Virus record (IMG/VR): IMGVR_UViG_3300012988_000009
Location: 1-47,311 of that record
Reading direction: 5' to 3' (one strand)
Source of the DNA: a virus
DNA: 47,311 nucleotides
Shown: in pieces, positions 103 to 19,226 of the stretch
Layout of the letters: every line of letters starts with the position of its first letter
Position numbering within the stretch: the first letter of the stretch is position 1
Translations under genes and position numbers: made by a program
The notes under the pieces: generated by a model
Database searches by the model: none
What the model was told of the DNA's origin: nothing
The model's input: only the letters and a program-made list of their open reading frames with translations

Positions 103-404
103 GCCTGCACAAGACCACCATCGCCATCCTGGGCTGTCCGGTGTGGTTCGAGCACACGTACAAGAACCCGTTGGACGGGGCTTTCCAGGTCGAGATGGCG
201 GTGAACGCCCTCGGCAGCCTGCTCGAGAAGTCCGCCGTCAAAGAGGTCAGCCGCGACCTCAGCCCGAAGGTGACGCTCGTGCCGGTGCCGCTCGACTTGC
301 TGACGGCGCTCGTCGAAAGCAGCCCGATGAGCAACGCCGGCAGCCAGCGCCTCGAAAAGCTTCAGGCCAACCTCCGCCAGTGGATCGACGCCCATGTCCC
401 CTGA
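99..404 (+). CDS. Hypothetical protein, 101 aa
   Basis: The protein begins MSLHKTTIAILG and has no family that I recognise. The N-terminal stretch TIAILGCPVWF is a short hydrophobic strand, and the C-terminal third is helical and charged. The ATG at 99 is chosen because it overlaps the preceding stop as ATGA, the coupling used throughout this gene block; an in-frame extension upstream would overlap the previous gene fully. It overlaps the next small gene by 11 bases. Probably an early accessory protein by position; no function is inferred. Confidence 0.7.
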   Translation: MSLHKTTIAILGCPVWFEHTYKNPLDGAFQVEMAVNALGSLLEKSAVKEVSRDLSPKVTLVPVPLDLLTALVESSPMSNAGSQRLEKLQANLRQWIDAHVP

Positions 405-525
405 CATCATCGCCGACCAGTGGCGTCCTACGCCGACGGCCGCCACCCCAACCACTCCACCGCCTCCGATTCCTCCGCTGCCGCTGGCGTGGGCGAAGGC
501 CGTCATTGAAGGGCGAAAGCCATGA
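394..525 (+). CDS. Proline-rich small protein, 43 aa
   Basis: A short frame fills the space between the gene ending at 404 and the one starting at 522, with an 11-base overlap on the left and a 4-base ATGA overlap on the right. The product starts [10 protein letters not shown] and its middle is dominated by P and T (a run of PPPP followed by IPPLPL), ending in a short basic tail. No domain is recognised. Its support is the tight packing with both neighbours; without a homology search it could still be a chance frame. Confidence 0.5.
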
Positions 526-1196
526 AGTTCCAACTTGGAGATATGGTCCGCAAAACCAAGGGCAGCCAGTGGCATGGCAAAGTCGTCGGCACGTACAGTA
601 CGGAGCTGACGCCGGAAGGGTATGCTGTCGAAAGCTGGAGCGAGAAGGGCTCCGTGCAGATTTACCCGGCAGCGGCGCTGGAATTGGCACAGGCCGCCCA
701 GGCTCAGGGGGATGCGGCTGCTCGTCAGGCTGGTGCGCACGCCGCCGATCGTGTCCTCGCTGAAATGATGGCCGAGAGCCCCCCAGCCCCGTCGTTGCTG
801 CCCGCTGAAATAAAGAGTGGCAAGCGGCTGCATGTACTAAAGACATGGCCTGATTATTTCAGCAAGGTTACGTCCGGCGATAAGACGTTCGAGTGTCGTG
901 TTTGGGACCGCGACTATCGAGTTGGCGATCATCTGTACCTCTATGAATGGGACCCCAAGACCGCAAACATGACCGGACGCTCCATATACTTCCGCATTGG
1001 GTACATTCTCACTGGTCCGTGCTCACCGGTTGGATTTTGTGTGATGACGCTAGCGCCTGTCGTTGCCCTCCCTGCCCCCGGCGCGCTGGCGGGGTTGGTG
1101 GAGAAGTGGCGCAAGCGCGTTTGCGCCGACACCGGATACTACCAGGCGGTTGAAGACCTTTCGTCGGAGCTGGAGGCGGTTCTCCGCAATGGCTGA
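522..1196 (+). CDS. DfrB-like (R67-type) dihydrofolate reductase domain fused to DUF3850
   Basis: Residues 3-54 align without gaps to R67/DfrB, the trimethoprim-insensitive SH3-like dihydrofolate reductase. K11 matches K32 of R67, W17 matches W38, S44 matches S65, and Q46-I47-Y48 match the Q67-I68-Y69 active-site triad; [10 protein letters not shown] (29-38) is identical to R67. R67 works as a homotetramer with one central pore. Residues 55-100 are an Ala/Gln-rich helical linker. Residues about 102-178 match DUF3850, an ASCH/PUA-like domain thought to bind RNA ([29 protein letters not shown]). The tail 190-222 is a helix of a kind often seen at the end of small phage proteins (LVEKWRKR...LSSELEAVL). 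ATGA overlap with the gene before, 8-base overlap with the helicase after. Folate reduction is inferred from the conserved residues; no thymidylate synthase was seen in the genome, so an RNA- or nucleotide-binding role is also possible. Confidence 0.85.
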
Positions 1197-2877
1197 CATC
1201 CTCGCCCAACGCACGCCGACCGGGCGCCCGAAGTTCGTCCTCATCGGCGCACCCGGCGCCCTCGGACTGAAGCTGTCGGAGATCGGCTGGCAGCAGTGGT
1301 CGATGGGGCGTTGGACGACGACGCGCCCGGCGACGATCGCGGCGACGGATGCGCTGCTGCCGACGGTGCGCGACGAGAGTTGCACGCGGGCGTTGGCGTG
1401 GTGCAGCCGGGCGTATCGGGACAGTTCGGTTATGGCGTACCCGGGGGGTGGAGGTCCGGAAGTCGAGGAGGTGCTGGCGAAGGGCGCCCCCAAGCCGTTC
1501 CCATATCAGGCGTCCGGCGCGATATGGCTGGCCGGCAAACAGCGGGCACTGCTGGGGGATGACGCGGGCTGCGGCAAGACGAATCAGGCCCTCATCGCCT
1601 GCGCGATCGTCAACGCCAAGCGCGTTCTCGTTCTCTGCCCCACGACGCTCACCGGCCAATGGATCGACGAAGCCGACCGCTGGGTCGGGCTCGAACGCTT
1701 CGACGAGTTCCAGGCCGTCGGGTTCGGGCTGCTGTCGACGTCCGGGGAGCGGGCCGGCGAGACGTACTTCGACGCCGTCTTCCGCGAGAAGTGGGACGTC
1801 GTCATCATCGACGAATGCCACTACCTCCGCAGCATGGACAGCACGCGCACCTGCCGGATATGGGGCGGCCAGTCGATCAAGAACAAGATCATCAAAGGCA
1901 AGCACCGCCGGGTGAAGGGACCGAAGTTCGAGGGCATCGCCCACGTCGCCACCAGGGTGTGGGCACTGTCTGGCAGCCCCATACCCAACAAGCCGAAGAA
2001 CATGTTGCCGACGTTGCACGGCCTCGACCCCGAAGGCTGGCCGACGCAGCAGTACCTCGAACGCTACTGCGACCCGCGCTTCGACCGGGCGACGAACGCC
2101 ATCGTCTACGAAGGATCGAGCAACGAAGAGGAGCTGAACAAGAACCTCCGCGGCGGCGGCATCATGCTCCGCCGGCTGAAGGCAGACGTGCTGCCGCAGC
2201 TGCCGCCGAAGGTGCGCGGCGTCGTCCGGCTGGAGGTGACGAACCTCACCCGCGAGACCGAATTCCTGAAGTCGAATCGCCTGACGCTCGCCGACATCCG
2301 CGAAGCCGTCGGCCGCATCGGTGCGCTCTGCAATGCGGATGACGTGCTGGCCACCGTCCGCCAGCAGTCGTCGCTCGCCCGCGTCGTCAAGATGGTGCCG
2401 ATGATCCAGGCGTTGGCCGGCGACGAGTCGGTCCTCGTCCTCTGCAACCACCGCGAGGTCGCGTGGCAGCTGCACGCGAGCCTGCATTCGGCGAGGAACG
2501 AAGGGGCCGACGACGCCCGCGACTGCGAGGCGATGAGCCTCACGGGCGACGATGCGCCTGCCGAGCGGCGCGCGAAGGCGCTGGCGTTCACCGGCAAATA
2601 CCTCTGCGCGACGATCGGCGCCATCGGCACGGGCCTGGACGGGCTGCAGCGGGCGTACAGCCACGCGATCTTCGTCGAGTTCCCGTGGGCGCCCTCCGAC
2701 CTGACGCAGGCGGAAGACCGGCTGCACCGCATCGGCCAGACGAAGTCCGTACGCATCACCTACCTCGTTGAACCCGGTTCGATCGAGAGCGCGGTGCTTG
2801 CTGGCACCGCACGGAAAGCGGAGTGGAGCCACATGGTGCTTGACGCCTCCGTACAGCGCACTAACGTTTCCGTATGA
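1189..2877 (+). CDS. SNF2-family DNA helicase/ATPase, 562 aa
   Basis: A superfamily 2 helicase of the SWI2/SNF2 type. Visible motifs in order: the Q-like [10 protein letters not shown] just before motif I; motif [10 protein letters not shown] (about residues 122-130); motif Ia [12 protein letters not shown]; motif [10 protein letters not shown] (about 206), a DECH variant of DEAH; motif [12 protein letters not shown] (about 260); a C-terminal lobe with [11 protein letters not shown] and the hallmark [12 protein letters not shown] (about 510). These proteins translocate on duplex DNA and occur in many phage replication modules. The ATG at 1189 overlaps the previous stop by 8 bases; an upstream in-frame start at 1063 would lie well inside the previous gene. 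Stop overlaps the next ATG (ATGA). Confidence 0.93.
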
Positions 2878-13147: not shown

Positions 13148-13341
13148 ACAACACCCGCGTGTCGATGCCGAAGGGCGAGCTGGTGCCGATCGCGAGCACC
13201 AGGAAGTGGCTGACGTTCGGGGTGGACGACGCTGGCGAGACGATCTTCGTCGGGGAAACGTGCTCCCGCCAGCACGCGTACGACCTCTACGTGAAGACGT
13301 TCCCCGACGACAAAGACCTCTGCCTGAACTGCGGCAGCTAG
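13144..13341 (+). CDS. Hypothetical protein with C-terminal Cys pair, 65 aa
   Basis: Last rightward gene. It starts MNNTRVSMPKGELVPIAS in an ATGA overlap and ends in LCLNCGS, a C-x2-C pair that could be half of a zinc site with C41 (ETCSRQHAYD). The stop codon TAG (13339-13341) shares CTAG with the stop codon of the leftward 1962-residue gene, so there is no spacer and no terminator between the two convergent blocks. Confidence 0.65.
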   Translation: MNNTRVSMPKGELVPIASTRKWLTFGVDDAGETIFVGETCSRQHAYDLYVKTFPDDKDLCLNCGS

Positions 13342-16300
13342 AACCCCGCCGCCTTGAGCTGCGTGTCGAGGATCGCCCGGTAGTTCTCCGCGACAGCCTT
13401 CAGTTTCGGGTGGTCCTTGGTGCCACCCTCCGCCGCAGTCATGTACTTCGCGAACCGCAGCCCGGTGTGGTCGGCGTTCGGGTTCGCGATCTTCCACTTG
13501 TTCAGCCGCGCCTGCAGCTCGAGCGTCGGGTCGTTCGTCAGCTTCTTCTTCGTCTCCTCCCGGGCGAGCGTCGACGCCTGCTTCCGGGCGTCGCCGAGCT
13601 TCTTCATGTCGAGCGCGGTGGGCGACTCGGTGTTGATGCCCGCGCCGTCGGCGAGCTGCTTGAAGTACCCGCCGGCGAGACGGACGTGGGCGCTGTACTC
13701 CTCCCCCGTCATCGTCCGGTCCTTGCCGTCGATGCGGACGGTCGGGTCCCAGCCGGCGAGGGCCAGCTTCTGCGACTTATCCGGCTGCGTGGCGTTGTAC
13801 TTCTCGATCGCGAGGTCGTACTCGTTGGGCTTGTAGCCGAGCGGCAGCGCGCGGAAGAACCGCATCGCGAGGTCGCCGGTCGAATCGATGCGCTGGCCCG
13901 GGGCGTTCTCACCCCACACCGTCAGCACCTCGGCCGCCTGCTCGAGCCCGGCGGCCTGACGGATGCGGCGGCCGAACGTCGGCGACTTCTCGCCGGCGGC
14001 CGCCTCTTCGGCATTCGGCAGCTTGTCGATCGACCGGCGCTTCTCGCCTGTGGCCTGCGAGGCTTTGATCGACCCACGGATGATCGCGGGTACGATGAAG
14101 TTGCCGACCGTGCGGGCGGCGTAGTTCTCGAGCCCGTTGGTCACGTCGCCCTTCGAGACGACGTCTCCGAGCATGCCGACGACCGGCAGCAGCGAGTCGA
14201 GGATCGTGCCCGACGCGAGCCCGCGCAGGGCCTTGCTGTAGCTTTCCGCGCCGACGTGGTCGCCGTTGTGCACCGCGCGGGCGATGTCGGTCATGGACGC
14301 CAGGGCGGTGCCGATCGGCCCCAGGTCGCGGTAGCTGTACCACTTCCCCATGAGCTTCATCGAATACGACGGCGGACGCCGGCCTTCGTACTCCCCGGCG
14401 AATTCGGAGGCGTCATCCGACTGCGTGCCGGTGATGAGCGGATCGTCTTCGTCGCCGGCGAGGCCCATGACGGCCGCGGTCAGCAGCGAGCCGATCGCCA
14501 GCTGGGCGAGGTCCTGGGACAGCTCCTGGTTGTTTTCGCCGGCGTAGCCCCCGCGGTAGTACTTCCGCAGCATCCGGACGGCCTTCAGCGGCGGGATGTA
14601 GTCGGTGCCCTGGCGGGTGATTGCCGTCGGCGTGCTGACGAACGGCAGCACCAGCGACGCGAGGCCGGTGGGCTCGCCGTTCACCATCAGGTTCAGGCCC
14701 CGGACGACGTTCGTCAGGTCCGACTGGCTGCCGCCCTGGTCCTTGTCGAAGAGGTCCTGGAACGTGGTCTTCCGCGCTTCGACCATGGCCGCCGCCCAGG
14801 CGTCCGGGTTCGACGCCGGATCGCGCATGGCGTTGGCCATGGCGACGGCCTTCTGCTCGCGGTTGCCGGGGGCGAGGCGGTAGGCTTCCGCCCCAACGGT
14901 GGAGTACGCCGCGAGGGTTTTGATGAAGCTGTCGCCGGCGGCCATCGGGCGCACGGCCAGACCGAACAGCAGCGGCACCCGCGGGCCCTTGGTCTCCGCC
15001 GCGAGGCCTGACTTCGCCTTCTCGGCGGTCGTGAGCACGTCCTCGCCGGCGATGAACGACGCCATCGCGTTCTTGGCCGCGGTGGGCAGCCCTTTCAGGA
15101 AGCCGGCGTAGTAGCTGGCCAGCACGTCGAGGTCACCCTTGCCGAGGCTGGCGGTCTGGCGCACCGCGGCGCGCAGCCCGGCGTTGACGAAGTTCGAGCT
15201 GACGTTGACCACCGCGGTGGCGGGGAACGACAGCAGGCCCTGACGCCAGAATGCGCGCACCCAGTCGCCGACGTTGTAGTGGCGGTCGGAGATGGCGGTG
15301 GAGGCGTCGGCCAGACGCATGACGTTGGCGACAGCGTACGCATCGCTGAACACGGCGCCGAGGCGCGGGTCCAGCAGGTCGATGCCAGTCGACTTCTTCA
15401 TGCGGTCGATGACGCGGGAGACCTTGGCGAAGTGGCTGGCTTCGAGCTGTTTGATGCGGGCCTTGTTGCCCGTCTCCTCAGCCTTCGCCAGCTCGCGCCG
15501 GGTGTAGTCCGACATGGCGAACACTGGCCGCAGCATCATGCGCCGGCGGCCGTCTTCGGATTTGATCATGCCGCGCTGCCGGGCAACGCCCGCCCGGCCC
15601 CATGCGGTGCCCGCCACGTCGTCGGCGTAGGCCAACTTCGCCAGCCGCATCGCGTTGGCCTCGGTGAAGTTGGCCTCGGTCTTGGTGAACTGGTCTTCCA
15701 GCTCCTGCGCCAGGGCCGTCTGCTCGCGGTCGTTCAGCGCGATGCGGCCGTCCTTCGCCGGCAGCAGCGTGCCCGAGATGACCTTGTCCGCGATGCCCTC
15801 GGCGAGCTTCGGGTCGGCCTTGCGCATCGCGGCGGCGTCCGCCTCCCACTGCGTCGTCGACTCGCGCTCCGTCGGCTCCAGCTGCTCGCGGGTGCCCTGC
15901 GTGAAGGCGGCCGCACCGGTCTTCGGCGTGGCGTAGGTCGGCTTGCCCTGGGCGGCGTCGACCTCGCGGGCCTTGGCCACCAGCTCCTGCCATTCCGCCG
16001 AGGCGGTGTCCGGCTTGCGGTCGCCGTGGGCCTTGCGCCACTGCTTCATCAGCGCATCGCGGGTCAGGTCGCCGGTCTTGGGTGCGTCGAGCCGGGTGGC
16101 GTAGCCCGGCGCGTCGACGTTCTCGTCGCTGCCGGTCATGCGGTTGGGCTCGCCGGTCTTCTGCCCGACGTTGCCGGTGTAGACGTCCTCGAAGACTTCG
16201 TTCGACGTGCGCGCCATCGCGCCGGGGCTGGCCTTCGAGAGGCGGTCGAACAGGGCCTTCGCCGAGTTCTTGAGCCGCATCCAGACACCGCGGATGCCGG

Positions 16301-19226
16301 GCGAGACGGCGGTGCGCGCACGCTCGTCGCGGGCGTCGCGCCAGGACTTGTACTTTCCGTACGCGGCCTCGAGAAAGGCGGCGCTGGTCGGCTGCAGCTT
16401 GCCGAGCTGCGGGTCCTCGCGCTGCAGGATGCGGATGTCGGACGGCGGCAGCAGGGCGCCGACGGCCGCGTGGTTGCGCTCCTCGTCGATCGCGTCGGTG
16501 GTCTCCCCGCGGCCTTCGACGAGGCGGATGAGCGTCTGCGGGCCGAAGCCGACGGACTTCCCGCTGATGTCGGTGGTCGCCGCGATGGCCGGGGCGAACG
16601 CCAGCACCTTCGCCTTGTCGGCCGGCAGCAGCTTGCGGAACTCGGCGGCATTCTCGACGGGGCGTATGGCCGGGCGCCCGGCGGCGACCTCGGCGGCGCT
16701 GGCAGCCGCGACCACCGATTTGATCGCCTGCTTGTTGCGACCGCCTTCGGTGACGCTGTCGATCCACGACGTCTCGTTGATCTTCCCCAGGTCGGGGACG
16801 ATGTGGAAATCCACGGTCTTGCCCGACGGCAGGACCCAGCGAACGCCGCTCTCGCCGACGTCCTCGGTCTTGGTGCCCTTGAACTCCGTACCGGCGAGGG
16901 CCTGCTTCAGGCGCGTCCGGCGTTCCGCGTGGGCGACCGTGGCCTCCGCGGATGCGGGGGCCGGTGGTTGAGCCGCTGCCGGCGGGCTGCTACGCCCCGG
17001 CGCAGCTGATGGAAGTCCCGCAGGCTTCGCCACCACACCACTGCTGGGCGGTACTGCGCGCGTTGCAGGTGCCGGGGAAACAGCGGGCTGTGCATTGGCG
17101 GGGGTCCCTCCACGCTGGCGCTCGGCGACGAGGCGGGCGACGTTCGCCCGCGCCGCCCCGGACAGGCCCAGGTCGTTCATGCGTTTGATGCGGGCAGCCG
17201 GATTCGGCTGGCTGAAGACGTCCTCGGCCATCGCCTCGGGCGTGCTGCGCTGGGCTTCGATGATCGCGGCGGTGCGGGCATCGGCGATGCGCTTGCGGGC
17301 TTCGATCGCCGCGAGGGTCTGCTCGCCTTCGATCTGCGCACGCCCCTGCTGTTCCGCCAGTGCGGCGTCCTTCAGCGCTTGGTCGGCCGACGCGGCCTGC
17401 GCACCGGCGATCTGCTCACGCCGAGCGCGGGCGGCTTCGATCTTCGCCGGGAGCTTGCGCCCGCCGGGGATCGGCGCGGGGGCTGCCGGCAGTGGCTCGC
17501 TGAGGTCAGGCGGGGGAACTGGCGCCGGCTGCGTGAGCACCGCCCGGTGAGGGGCGGCCTCCGCGTCGAGTGCCGCAAGCATGCGCGCCTTGGGCGCCGC
17601 GGGCATGCGCTGGCCGAGGAGCGCCGACCGACGCCGCTCTATCTCGTCGAGCTTGGACTGGGCGTCCGCCAGCTGCGCCTCGTGTGCGAGTTGCAGCTCG
17701 GCAAAAGCGTCCCGGTCCCGGGCTCGCTCGGCGAGCAATTCGGCATGGGCCTGAGCATCCCGGGGGTCCAGGTAGCTACCGCCGGTGGCTGCTCGGGCCT
17801 GCTCCTGGCGTGCAAGGGCGGCATCCCGTTCGGCACGAATCGCGGGCTCGTTCCCCAGCGCCTCCAGTCCCTGCGCTTCGCGCTGGCGGACGATGTCCTC
17901 CGCTGCCGCCATCTCGTCCGCCGCGGGGCTGATGTCCGGGCGACGGGCCTGCTGCGCCTGGAATCCCTTCTCGTTGGCGAGCGCCACCTGCGTGCGACCG
18001 GCGTCCTGGACCAGCGCCTCCTGGTCGCCCAGGCGGGTGATATCGTTGGCACCTTCGATCAGGGTGTTCGCCGACGCCGCGGTGTTGGGCACGAGGTCAA
18101 CCGGCGACGGAGCGACCGCGGGTGCCGGCTCCAGCAGCGGAGTGGCGACGGGCTGCCCTTCGGCAAGCGCCTGGACGAAGTCGTCCTCCATCGTGCGCGT
18201 GGGGCTGAAGCCCTCCTTCACCGCGGCGATGCCAGCCCCGCCGGTGCCCGCGACCGAGGCCATCAGCAGCCGCTGGTTCTCGTCACCGTTGTCGATGCCG
18301 GCGAGGCGGTCCTGCAGGATCTGCGCCGCTTCGGTGCCGGGCTCCTCGAGGCCACCTTCCACCGCGACACCCCCGAGGCGGCGGGCGGCGGTCGGCAGAG
18401 CGGTGAGCGGCACCTGGGCGGCGCCACGGACGCCGGCCAAGGCCTCCGCACCTTCGTCGAGCCCGAGGCCGCGGGCGACCTTGCCACCCACCGCGGTGAA
18501 GAGGGATTCGGTCGCCAGCTGGCCGCCGGCATAGAGCGCAGCCTCCGCCGGCGTCAGCCCGCGGTCGATGGCCTGCTGGTAGTTGGGCTCGACCTGCGGG
18601 GCCGCAGCGCCAGCGCCGGCCGCCGCGGACGTCAGCGCGAGGCGCCGAGCGGCATTCATGCCCGCCGGGAGCACCGCACCGACGCCGCGGGCCGCCACGC
18701 CGCCCGGGAGCACCGTCTGGCCGATCGACTGGCCGATGGTCTCCGTGGCGCGGCCAACGAAGCCCTGGTCCTCCGGCCGCGTCTGCTCGACGACCTGCTG
18801 CAGGCCCTGGCGGGCGGTCTCGAACGGCCGCGGCACCGCGGTGTCGATGCCCAACGTGCCGCCCACAGCGTGCGCGAGCTGGGCGGCCGGCAGGCGCTCG
18901 CCGAGGTCCTGCGCGAGCTGGGCGGTGCCCAGCGACGCATCCACCGCGCCGACGATCGGCGAGGTCAGCGTGCGGTAGGTCTGGCCGGAGGTGTCCTGGT
19001 CGACGACGTCCGCCTCGCCACCGAAGGTCGGCGTGACGCCACGCTCGCGGCGTACGGCGTCGGCAATGCCGGCGACCAGCGCCTGCCGGTCCACGATCGG
19101 CGCACCTGCGGCGAGCGCCTGCTTGTAGCGGCGCTGCACCTCCAGGTTGATGTCCGCGGTCTCGTTGGCAGCGGCGACCGCTTCGTGCTGGTCGGCTTCT
19201 GCGATCTCATCCGGGGTAAACGGCAT
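13338..19226 (-). CDS. Giant ejection/core virion protein, 1962 aa
   Basis: By far the largest gene, last in the virion block, as for the large internal proteins of podoviruses that enter the host with the DNA. Regions: an Ala/Gly-rich N-terminus with possible membrane-active segments (about 150-290); a long charged coiled coil (about 440-640); a folded domain (about 755-930) with GVRWVLPSGKTVDFHIVPDL and DEERNHAAVGALL (about 905-918), which resembles a zincin-type EExxH helix; a helical domain with SMTDIARAVHNGD; and hydrophobic helices near 1330 (FPATAVVNVSSNFVNAGLR) and 1575 (AIGSLLTAAVMGLAG). The C-terminal region (about 1300-1700) looks like domains found in large phage polyvalent/core proteins. 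No clear lytic transglycosylase motif was seen. Confidence 0.75.
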   Translation of the reverse strand: MPFTPDEIAEADQHEAVAAANETADINLEVQRRYKQALAAGAPIVDRQALVAGIADAVRRERGVTPTFGGEADVVDQDTSGQTYRTLTSPIVGAVDASLGTAQLAQDLGERLPAAQLAHAVGGTLGIDTAVPRPFETARQGLQQVVEQTRPEDQGFVGRATETIGQSIGQTVLPGGVAARGVGAVLPAGMNAARRLALTSAAAGAGAAAPQVEPNYQQAIDRGLTPAEAALYAGGQLATESLFTAVGGKVARGLGLDEGAEALAGVRGAAQVPLTALPTAARRLGGVAVEGGLEEPGTEAAQILQDRLAGIDNGDENQRLLMASVAGTGGAGIAAVKEGFSPTRTMEDDFVQALAEGQPVATPLLEPAPAVAPSPVDLVPNTAASANTLIEGANDITRLGDQEALVQDAGRTQVALANEKGFQAQQARRPDISPAADEMAAAEDIVRQREAQGLEALGNEPAIRAERDAALARQEQARAATGGSYLDPRDAQAHAELLAERARDRDAFAELQLAHEAQLADAQSKLDEIERRRSALLGQRMPAAPKARMLAALDAEAAPHRAVLTQPAPVPPPDLSEPLPAAPAPIPGGRKLPAKIEAARARREQIAGAQAASADQALKDAALAEQQGRAQIEGEQTLAAIEARKRIADARTAAIIEAQRSTPEAMAEDVFSQPNPAARIKRMNDLGLSGAARANVARLVAERQRGGTPANAQPAVSPAPATRAVPPSSGVVAKPAGLPSAAPGRSSPPAAAQPPAPASAEATVAHAERRTRLKQALAGTEFKGTKTEDVGESGVRWVLPSGKTVDFHIVPDLGKINETSWIDSVTEGGRNKQAIKSVVAAASAAEVAAGRPAIRPVENAAEFRKLLPADKAKVLAFAPAIAATTDISGKSVGFGPQTLIRLVEGRGETTDAIDEERNHAAVGALLPPSDIRILQREDPQLGKLQPTSAAFLEAAYGKYKSWRDARDERARTAVSPGIRGVWMRLKNSAKALFDRLSKASPGAMARTSNEVFEDVYTGNVGQKTGEPNRMTGSDENVDAPGYATRLDAPKTGDLTRDALMKQWRKAHGDRKPDTASAEWQELVAKAREVDAAQGKPTYATPKTGAAAFTQGTREQLEPTERESTTQWEADAAAMRKADPKLAEGIADKVISGTLLPAKDGRIALNDREQTALAQELEDQFTKTEANFTEANAMRLAKLAYADDVAGTAWGRAGVARQRGMIKSEDGRRRMMLRPVFAMSDYTRRELAKAEETGNKARIKQLEASHFAKVSRVIDRMKKSTGIDLLDPRLGAVFSDAYAVANVMRLADASTAISDRHYNVGDWVRAFWRQGLLSFPATAVVNVSSNFVNAGLRAAVRQTASLGKGDLDVLASYYAGFLKGLPTAAKNAMASFIAGEDVLTTAEKAKSGLAAETKGPRVPLLFGLAVRPMAAGDSFIKTLAAYSTVGAEAYRLAPGNREQKAVAMANAMRDPASNPDAWAAAMVEARKTTFQDLFDKDQGGSQSDLTNVVRGLNLMVNGEPTGLASLVLPFVSTPTAITRQGTDYIPPLKAVRMLRKYYRGGYAGENNQELSQDLAQLAIGSLLTAAVMGLAGDEDDPLITGTQSDDASEFAGEYEGRRPPSYSMKLMGKWYSYRDLGPIGTALASMTDIARAVHNGDHVGAESYSKALRGLASGTILDSLLPVVGMLGDVVSKGDVTNGLENYAARTVGNFIVPAIIRGSIKASQATGEKRRSIDKLPNAEEAAAGEKSPTFGRRIRQAAGLEQAAEVLTVWGENAPGQRIDSTGDLAMRFFRALPLGYKPNEYDLAIEKYNATQPDKSQKLALAGWDPTVRIDGKDRTMTGEEYSAHVRLAGGYFKQLADGAGINTESPTALDMKKLGDARKQASTLAREETKKKLTNDPTLELQARLNKWKIANPNADHTGLRFAKYMTAAEGGTKDHPKLKAVAENYRAILDTQLKAAGF

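Follow-up and report, generated by a model that had tools for sequence, protein, structure and literature searches.

A phage replication-module protein that joins an R67-type (DfrB) dihydrofolate reductase domain to DUF3850, and clues from its viral relatives to the native role of DfrB

An intact DfrB (R67-type dihydrofolate reductase, DHFR) domain was found at the N-terminus of a two-domain phage protein, the other half of which is a DUF3850 domain. The protein is encoded in a virus fragment from environmental DNA, linear and 47,311 bases long, which is a complete IMG/VR record and is here called the window. The best reading is that of a mosaic phage protein from an early operon, one of the many ways in which early-gene modules of phages have been combined, and we tentatively propose that it carries a working DfrB module (an NADPH/dihydropterin-type tetramer) that would serve viral nucleotide or DNA-base chemistry rather than having been selected for drug resistance. 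DfrB fusions of phages are an already known kind of protein, and the pairing with DUF3850 appears to be new.

The two-domain architecture had been proposed from the letters of the DNA, and Pfam and phmmer searches agreed with it. The DHFR_2 family (PF06442) matched with 76.9 bits (cut-off 25, E 1.1e-21) and DUF3850 (PF12961) with 76.6 bits (cut-off 22.9, E 1.8e-21); the DUF3850 part also gave an ASCH match of 24.5 bits, and PHROG 986, annotated as 'RNA-binding protein', matched residues 70-190 (E 2.1e-23). The ungapped alignment of residues 3-54 to R67 DHFR (1vie/6ny0) that the sequence-only reading had described was reproduced by phmmer (E 2.5e-16), with about 62% identity over the domain. 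The active-site positions given in that reading, K11, S44, Q46, I47 and Y48 for R67 K32, S65, Q67, I68 and Y69, were correct, and V45 (R67 V66) and W17 (R67 W38) are kept as well, whereas Thr (T24) stands in place of R67 W45 and Glu in place of H62. The positions of these features and of the neighboring genes are collected in Table 1.

Table 1. Position of the fusion gene, its parts and the adjoining genes in the window
Feature	Position	Strand	Basis or remark
Gene for the fusion protein (224 aa), with DfrB domain, helix/linker region, DUF3850 and helical tail in that order	522..1196	+	ATG start
DfrB (R67-type, PF06442) SH3-like domain, residues 3-54	528..683	+	Pfam, phmmer, model overlay on 2gqv/1vie
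K11 (R67 K32), binds negative charges of NADPH and DHF	552..554	+	phmmer alignment; 98% in viral relatives
W17 (R67 W38), dimer-dimer interface	570..572	+	phmmer alignment; 98% in viral relatives; role from PMC9835603
S44-V45-Q46-I47-Y48 (R67 S65 and VQIY active-site motif)	651..665	+	phmmer alignment; 98-100% in viral relatives
Predicted helix, residues 56-84, running into low-confidence linker	687..773	+	AlphaFold2
DUF3850 (PF12961, ASCH/PUA-like) domain, residues 104-176	831..1049	+	Pfam; PHROG 986
C-terminal helical hairpin, residues 186-223	1077..1190	+	AlphaFold2, pLDDT about 50-63; partly within PHROG 986 match
Upstream 43-aa ORF, stop overlapping the fusion start (ATGA, 522-525)	394..525	+	Sequence; no Pfam match
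SNF2-type helicase gene overlapping the fusion 3' end	1189..2877	+	Pfam SNF2-rel_dom, E 1.5e-17; PHROG 62 DNA helicase, E 2.9e-58

Structure prediction agreed with the sequence comparison for the DfrB half. Residues 1-60 were modelled by AlphaFold2 with block-mean pLDDT values of 87-98, and farther on the model has a long helix, a beta-rich domain and a helical hairpin, the DUF3850 half being of low confidence; the input alignment was limited to DfrB rows because MAFFT misaligned the joint rows of DfrB and DUF3850. By using this model in a Foldseek search, seven significant matches were obtained, all of them R67 structures, on which the single-chain DfrB domain overlays with an rmsd of 0.8 A (TM 0.88-0.94 on the target, 60-62% identity). 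Judged by homology, the protein would very likely form a tetramer, bind NADPH and, if expressed, act as a trimethoprim-insensitive DHFR.

The fusion gene belongs to a replication-module operon of the phage, because its reading frame overlaps those upstream and downstream of it and the helicase gene is followed by primase, DNA polymerase and RuvC genes. Elsewhere in the window, an open frame of 1962 aa on the minus strand (13338-19226) has a coding-like composition and no PHROG match.

Several published studies provide a frame for this protein. Lemay-St-Denis et al. described in 2023 (PMC9835603) a non-redundant set of 30 DfrB homologues; some of these are multi-domain proteins, among them one from a Pseudomonas phage and one from a Vibrio phage. 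In that work, the fused homologues DfrB-H4, H5 and H6 conferred trimethoprim resistance, DfrB-H5 formed tetramers with a pore like that of DfrB1, and DHFR activity was present in fused DfrB homologues, while neither a native function nor an origin of DfrB was assigned. Phage-borne dfrB has also been reported from freshwater viromes (PMC7265639), and eight dfrB genes from lytic phages (PMC12466917). The earlier description of DfrB as known mainly as a stand-alone cassette enzyme leaves out these multi-domain homologues published in 2023. Like DfrB-H3 to H6 (PMC9835603), the present protein carries the SH3-like domain inside a larger, mostly phage-type protein and keeps the pore residues; unlike them, it has DUF3850, which was reported in none of the four. 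Its DfrB domain is N-terminal, whereas that of the Pseudomonas phage PS-1 and Vibrio phage proteins is C-terminal or internal.

With regard to classification, the protein has PF06442 above the cut-off, the K32 and VQIY residues and W38, as expected of a type B DHFR. Canonical DfrB proteins, however, are stand-alone, of 78 aa, with a disordered N-terminal extension, and the fusion is a DfrB homologue and not a named-type DfrB, because it is a two-domain protein of 224 aa in which the domain begins at residue 3 and runs into a second domain. The second half belongs to the DUF3850/ASCH proteins of phages (PF12961, PF04266), which are modular and often fused, and residues 104-176 lie far above the Pfam cut-off. 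The partner in published phage DUF3850 fusions is a ParB-CTPase (PMC12704722), whereas here it is DfrB. The same pairing was then sought in other phages, as had been advised, and did not recur: the 49 other DfrB-bearing virus records examined all lacked DUF3850, no DfrB domain was seen among the best 80 of 310 viral DUF3850 loci, and no relative of the full-length protein was detected in viral contigs by a short-pattern scan.

The DfrB domain itself has many viral relatives. It was found in 26 phage records and, by a pattern scan, in at least 256 IMG/VR viral contigs, while a narrower pattern gave 40 bacterial contigs. Of 85 distinct viral domains, 53 (about 60%) make up a protein by themselves, and the remainder lies at the C-terminus (16), at the N-terminus (12) or in the interior (4) of a larger one. 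The fusion partners are mostly unrelated to one another; those named include the restriction-alleviation protein Lar and, at two loci, a MazG-like pyrophosphatase. The two DfrB-MazG-like fusions (L048:4180-4788 and L053:4989-5597) are nucleotide-linked. Two further occurrences were observed: a single 21-kb contig of a Polynucleobacter MAG (L112, L148; JALRHB010000011.1) carries two different DfrB genes of 107 and 72 aa, and the linear record of Aeromonas phage AsC4_1 opens with an unannotated DfrB stretch (PV158446.1, L011:3-125).

Conservation in this viral family is concentrated in the pore. Across the 85 distinct domains, K32, W38, Y46, T51 and S65-Y69 (R67 numbering) are 97-100% conserved, with the reservation that parts of the GSxWxG and YSTxLT motifs were set by the scan patterns, VQIY being left free in the scan that gave the 256 or more contigs; W45, A37, Q39, Q41, E60 and P63 are variable, and surface sites vary. 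Among 119 pairs of similar viral genes, which are not independent of one another, ten pore positions showed 7 non-synonymous vs 382 synonymous differences, as compared with 332 vs 1147 at the non-pore positions of the same pairs. All seven non-synonymous pore differences fall at G64 and none at 65-69. Strong purifying selection acts on the pore of the viral DfrB domains.

The gene neighborhoods of the viral relatives provide the strongest contextual clue. FolE, QueD and/or QueE were found within about 5 kb of dfrB in 39 fetched viral loci, and PTPS/QueD in 21 of 50 DfrB-bearing records, with QueC in one. When 31 loci with distinct domains were examined, dfrB lay within 25 nt of FolE, QueD, QueE or a TGT-like gene in 26, where about 3.5 would be expected if a different gene of these loci were taken instead, the cassette-bearing viruses forming one related large group so that the loci are not independent. 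The direct partner of dfrB was QueD in 11 loci, the TGT-like gene in 8, FolE in 4 and QueE in 4; because it differs between viruses, the arrangement is not one frozen gene order. Compared with the published 7-deazaguanine DNA modification cassettes of phages (PMC6884629), in the report of which the word 'dihydrofolate' does not occur, the relatives thus adjoin FolE, QueD, QueE and TGT/DpdA-like genes, but QueC is nearly absent from DfrB-bearing records. None of FolE, QueD, QueE, QueC or the TGT-like gene was found in the window itself, and the clue therefore bears on the fusion protein by family resemblance only.

Counted from the side of the cassettes, dfrB was present in only one of the 80 TGT-like loci and in none of the 79 QueD loci. 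Because of these counts, dfrB is regarded as an optional addition to the cassettes, and a role as an obligatory pathway step was rejected. No other reductase that might replace it was obvious downstream of QueD or the TGT-like gene when the leading clusters were read by eye. Where dfrB is present, it is placed between the TGT-like gene and a small gene family that usually follows directly. In 48 of 72 loci, the TGT-like gene is followed directly by a member of a conserved protein family with a length of about 175 aa (such as L311:6548-7081 and L078:5319-5888); no Pfam match was obtained for the member tested, and the family is a candidate for a further enzyme of the same modification.

The TGT-like protein is probably a DpdA-like transglycosylase, because it carries landmark motifs (DSGGFQ and FDC), aligns with bacterial TGT at these landmarks in hhalign (E 5e-4, with a probability of only 31%) and, as a model with a mean pLDDT of 53, places TGTs at the head of the VIA-align list (Z 11.9) in a second-look alignment. 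Searches of Pfam, PHROGs, PADLOC, PDB sequences and Foldseek gave no significant match for it. The protein is widespread in freshwater viruses, and viral contigs contain at least 590 relatives (examples are L033:3256-4998, L078:3286-4998, L016:39-1544 and the 80 loci L246-L325). The viral QueD proteins (L014, L027, L036, L045, L047) show a CNLIHGY motif; the usual QueD motif is CxxxHGH, and the viral Tyr stands at the place of the usual zinc His. The catalytic Cys, Asp and His of these proteins appear to be kept.

Taken together, a tentative mechanism may be drawn for the window protein. Four copies would come together by way of their SH3-like domains to form a ring of the R67 type around a single central pore. 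This pore would bind NADPH and a dihydropterin-like ligand and let a hydride pass between them, and the four DUF3850 domains, outside the ring, would probably read nucleic acid or nucleotides; binding of RNA or nucleotides by DUF3850 is suggested by its ASCH/PUA-like fold. The viral module might use NADPH to reduce a pterin or a 7-deazaguanine intermediate, a possible example being that 6-carboxy-tetrahydropterin is kept reduced, and this role is suggested because dfrB repeatedly adjoins folE, queD, queE or the TGT/DpdA-like gene. It is supported by the MazG-like and Lar partners, which are also nucleotide- or restriction-related. On the other hand, a gene-rich accessory region might simply gather small genes, and to our knowledge the textbook FolE-QueD-QueE route needs no reductase, which counts against a role in the cassette.

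A classical phage DHFR, which would regenerate tetrahydrofolate for dTMP and one-carbon supply like T4 Frd and to which DUF3850 would be incidental, seems rather unlikely. The intact active site and the DHFR activity of homologues (PMC9835603) speak for it, as does the ThyA-family gene in the DfrB-bearing isolates phiM9, ZX86 and RHph_I1_6. However, ThyX and FolA (PF00186) were each found in 0 of 50 DfrB-bearing records and ThyA-family genes in only 8, fragments being able to hide genes, and R67-type enzymes are slow (PMC9835603). The absence of a thymidylate synthase gene, pointed out in the first reading, was borne out for both ThyA and ThyX in the window, a linear fragment in which PF02511, PF00303 and PF00186 are all absent. 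Thus, of the suggestion that this is a phage folate enzyme, the intact active site stands, but the link to folate in the T4 sense is weak.

A non-catalytic scaffold is considered unlikely; in this reading the DfrB domain serves only for oligomerisation, the joint binding of RNA or DNA falls to the four DUF3850 domains, and binding of NADPH and DHF is incidental. Such a scaffold would accord with the mosaic fusions of DfrB to many unrelated partners and with the joining of DUF3850 to other folds, such as ParB-CTPase (PMC12704722). For oligomerisation W38 and the interface are required, whereas K32 and VQIY are dispensable, and yet the pore residues are almost invariant and the changes there almost only synonymous; moreover, 53 of the 85 distinct viral copies stand alone, with nothing to oligomerise. 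The earlier suggestion of an SH3-like module reused for binding is disfavored by this conservation of the pore.

It is quite improbable that the positively charged, symmetric pore acts as an anti-defence sponge for a nucleotide immune signal or for a molecule derived from NAD. Phage sponges of such design exist, the viral domain is small, often stand-alone and has a conserved nucleotide-binding pore, and several copies lie near integrases, methyltransferases or recombination genes, and a fusion to Lar exists; but no defence system or signal was tied to DfrB here, and PADLOC was null for ten cassette proteins, DfrB not being among them.

Phylogenetic analysis was used to examine the relationship between viral and resistance DfrB. 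In an unrooted tree of 58 columns, most deep forks of which are weak, the 18 distinct canonical sequences of the 78-aa type, R67 included, form one clade (support 100/99), the viral sequences are much more diverse, and the other bacterial rows are scattered among them; the window domain groups with viral sequences outside the canonical clade. Almost no viral homologues, and little shared context, were found near canonical bacterial DfrB loci. A recent phage capture of a bacterial resistance gene, kept for trimethoprim resistance, is highly improbable in spite of the close homology to DfrB, given that grouping, the missing canonical N-terminus and W45, and that no integron or resistance gene was seen nearby.

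These sequence relationships support, but do not prove, a viral source of the resistance enzymes, because the tree is unrooted and most of its deep forks are weak. The idea that phages form an ancestor pool for dfrB thus gains from the position of the canonical clade amid more diverse viral sequences, whereas the short, unrooted tree leaves it short of proof. A 2024 study named Burkholderiales as the original dfrB hosts, in a text without any mention of phages (PMC11662351). It may be speculated, as a rather unlikely possibility, that the whole DfrB family is viral, that its first job was NADPH-dependent reduction of pterins or deazapurines for phage DNA-base modification, that the integron and Burkholderiales resistance enzymes are escaped copies, and that the window protein is a derivative tethering the reductase ring to a PUA-like reader of nucleic acids or bases.

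The fusion matters chiefly for the hypothesis to which it pointed, one on the native role and the source of DfrB that can be put to the test. The function of R67/DfrB before the arrival of trimethoprim becomes open to experiment by phage genetics and with purified proteins, given hundreds of viral copies in which the pore is strictly preserved and the repeated placement of dfrB beside pterin and 7-deazaguanine genes. Viruses are also a reservoir of trimethoprim-insensitive folds that are missed by gene-length filters, such as that of a published survey limited to sequences of <100 aa (PMC9774602). Finally, the viral relatives, some of them in DNA-base-modification clusters, provide a hint of the source and the first job of a resistance enzyme.
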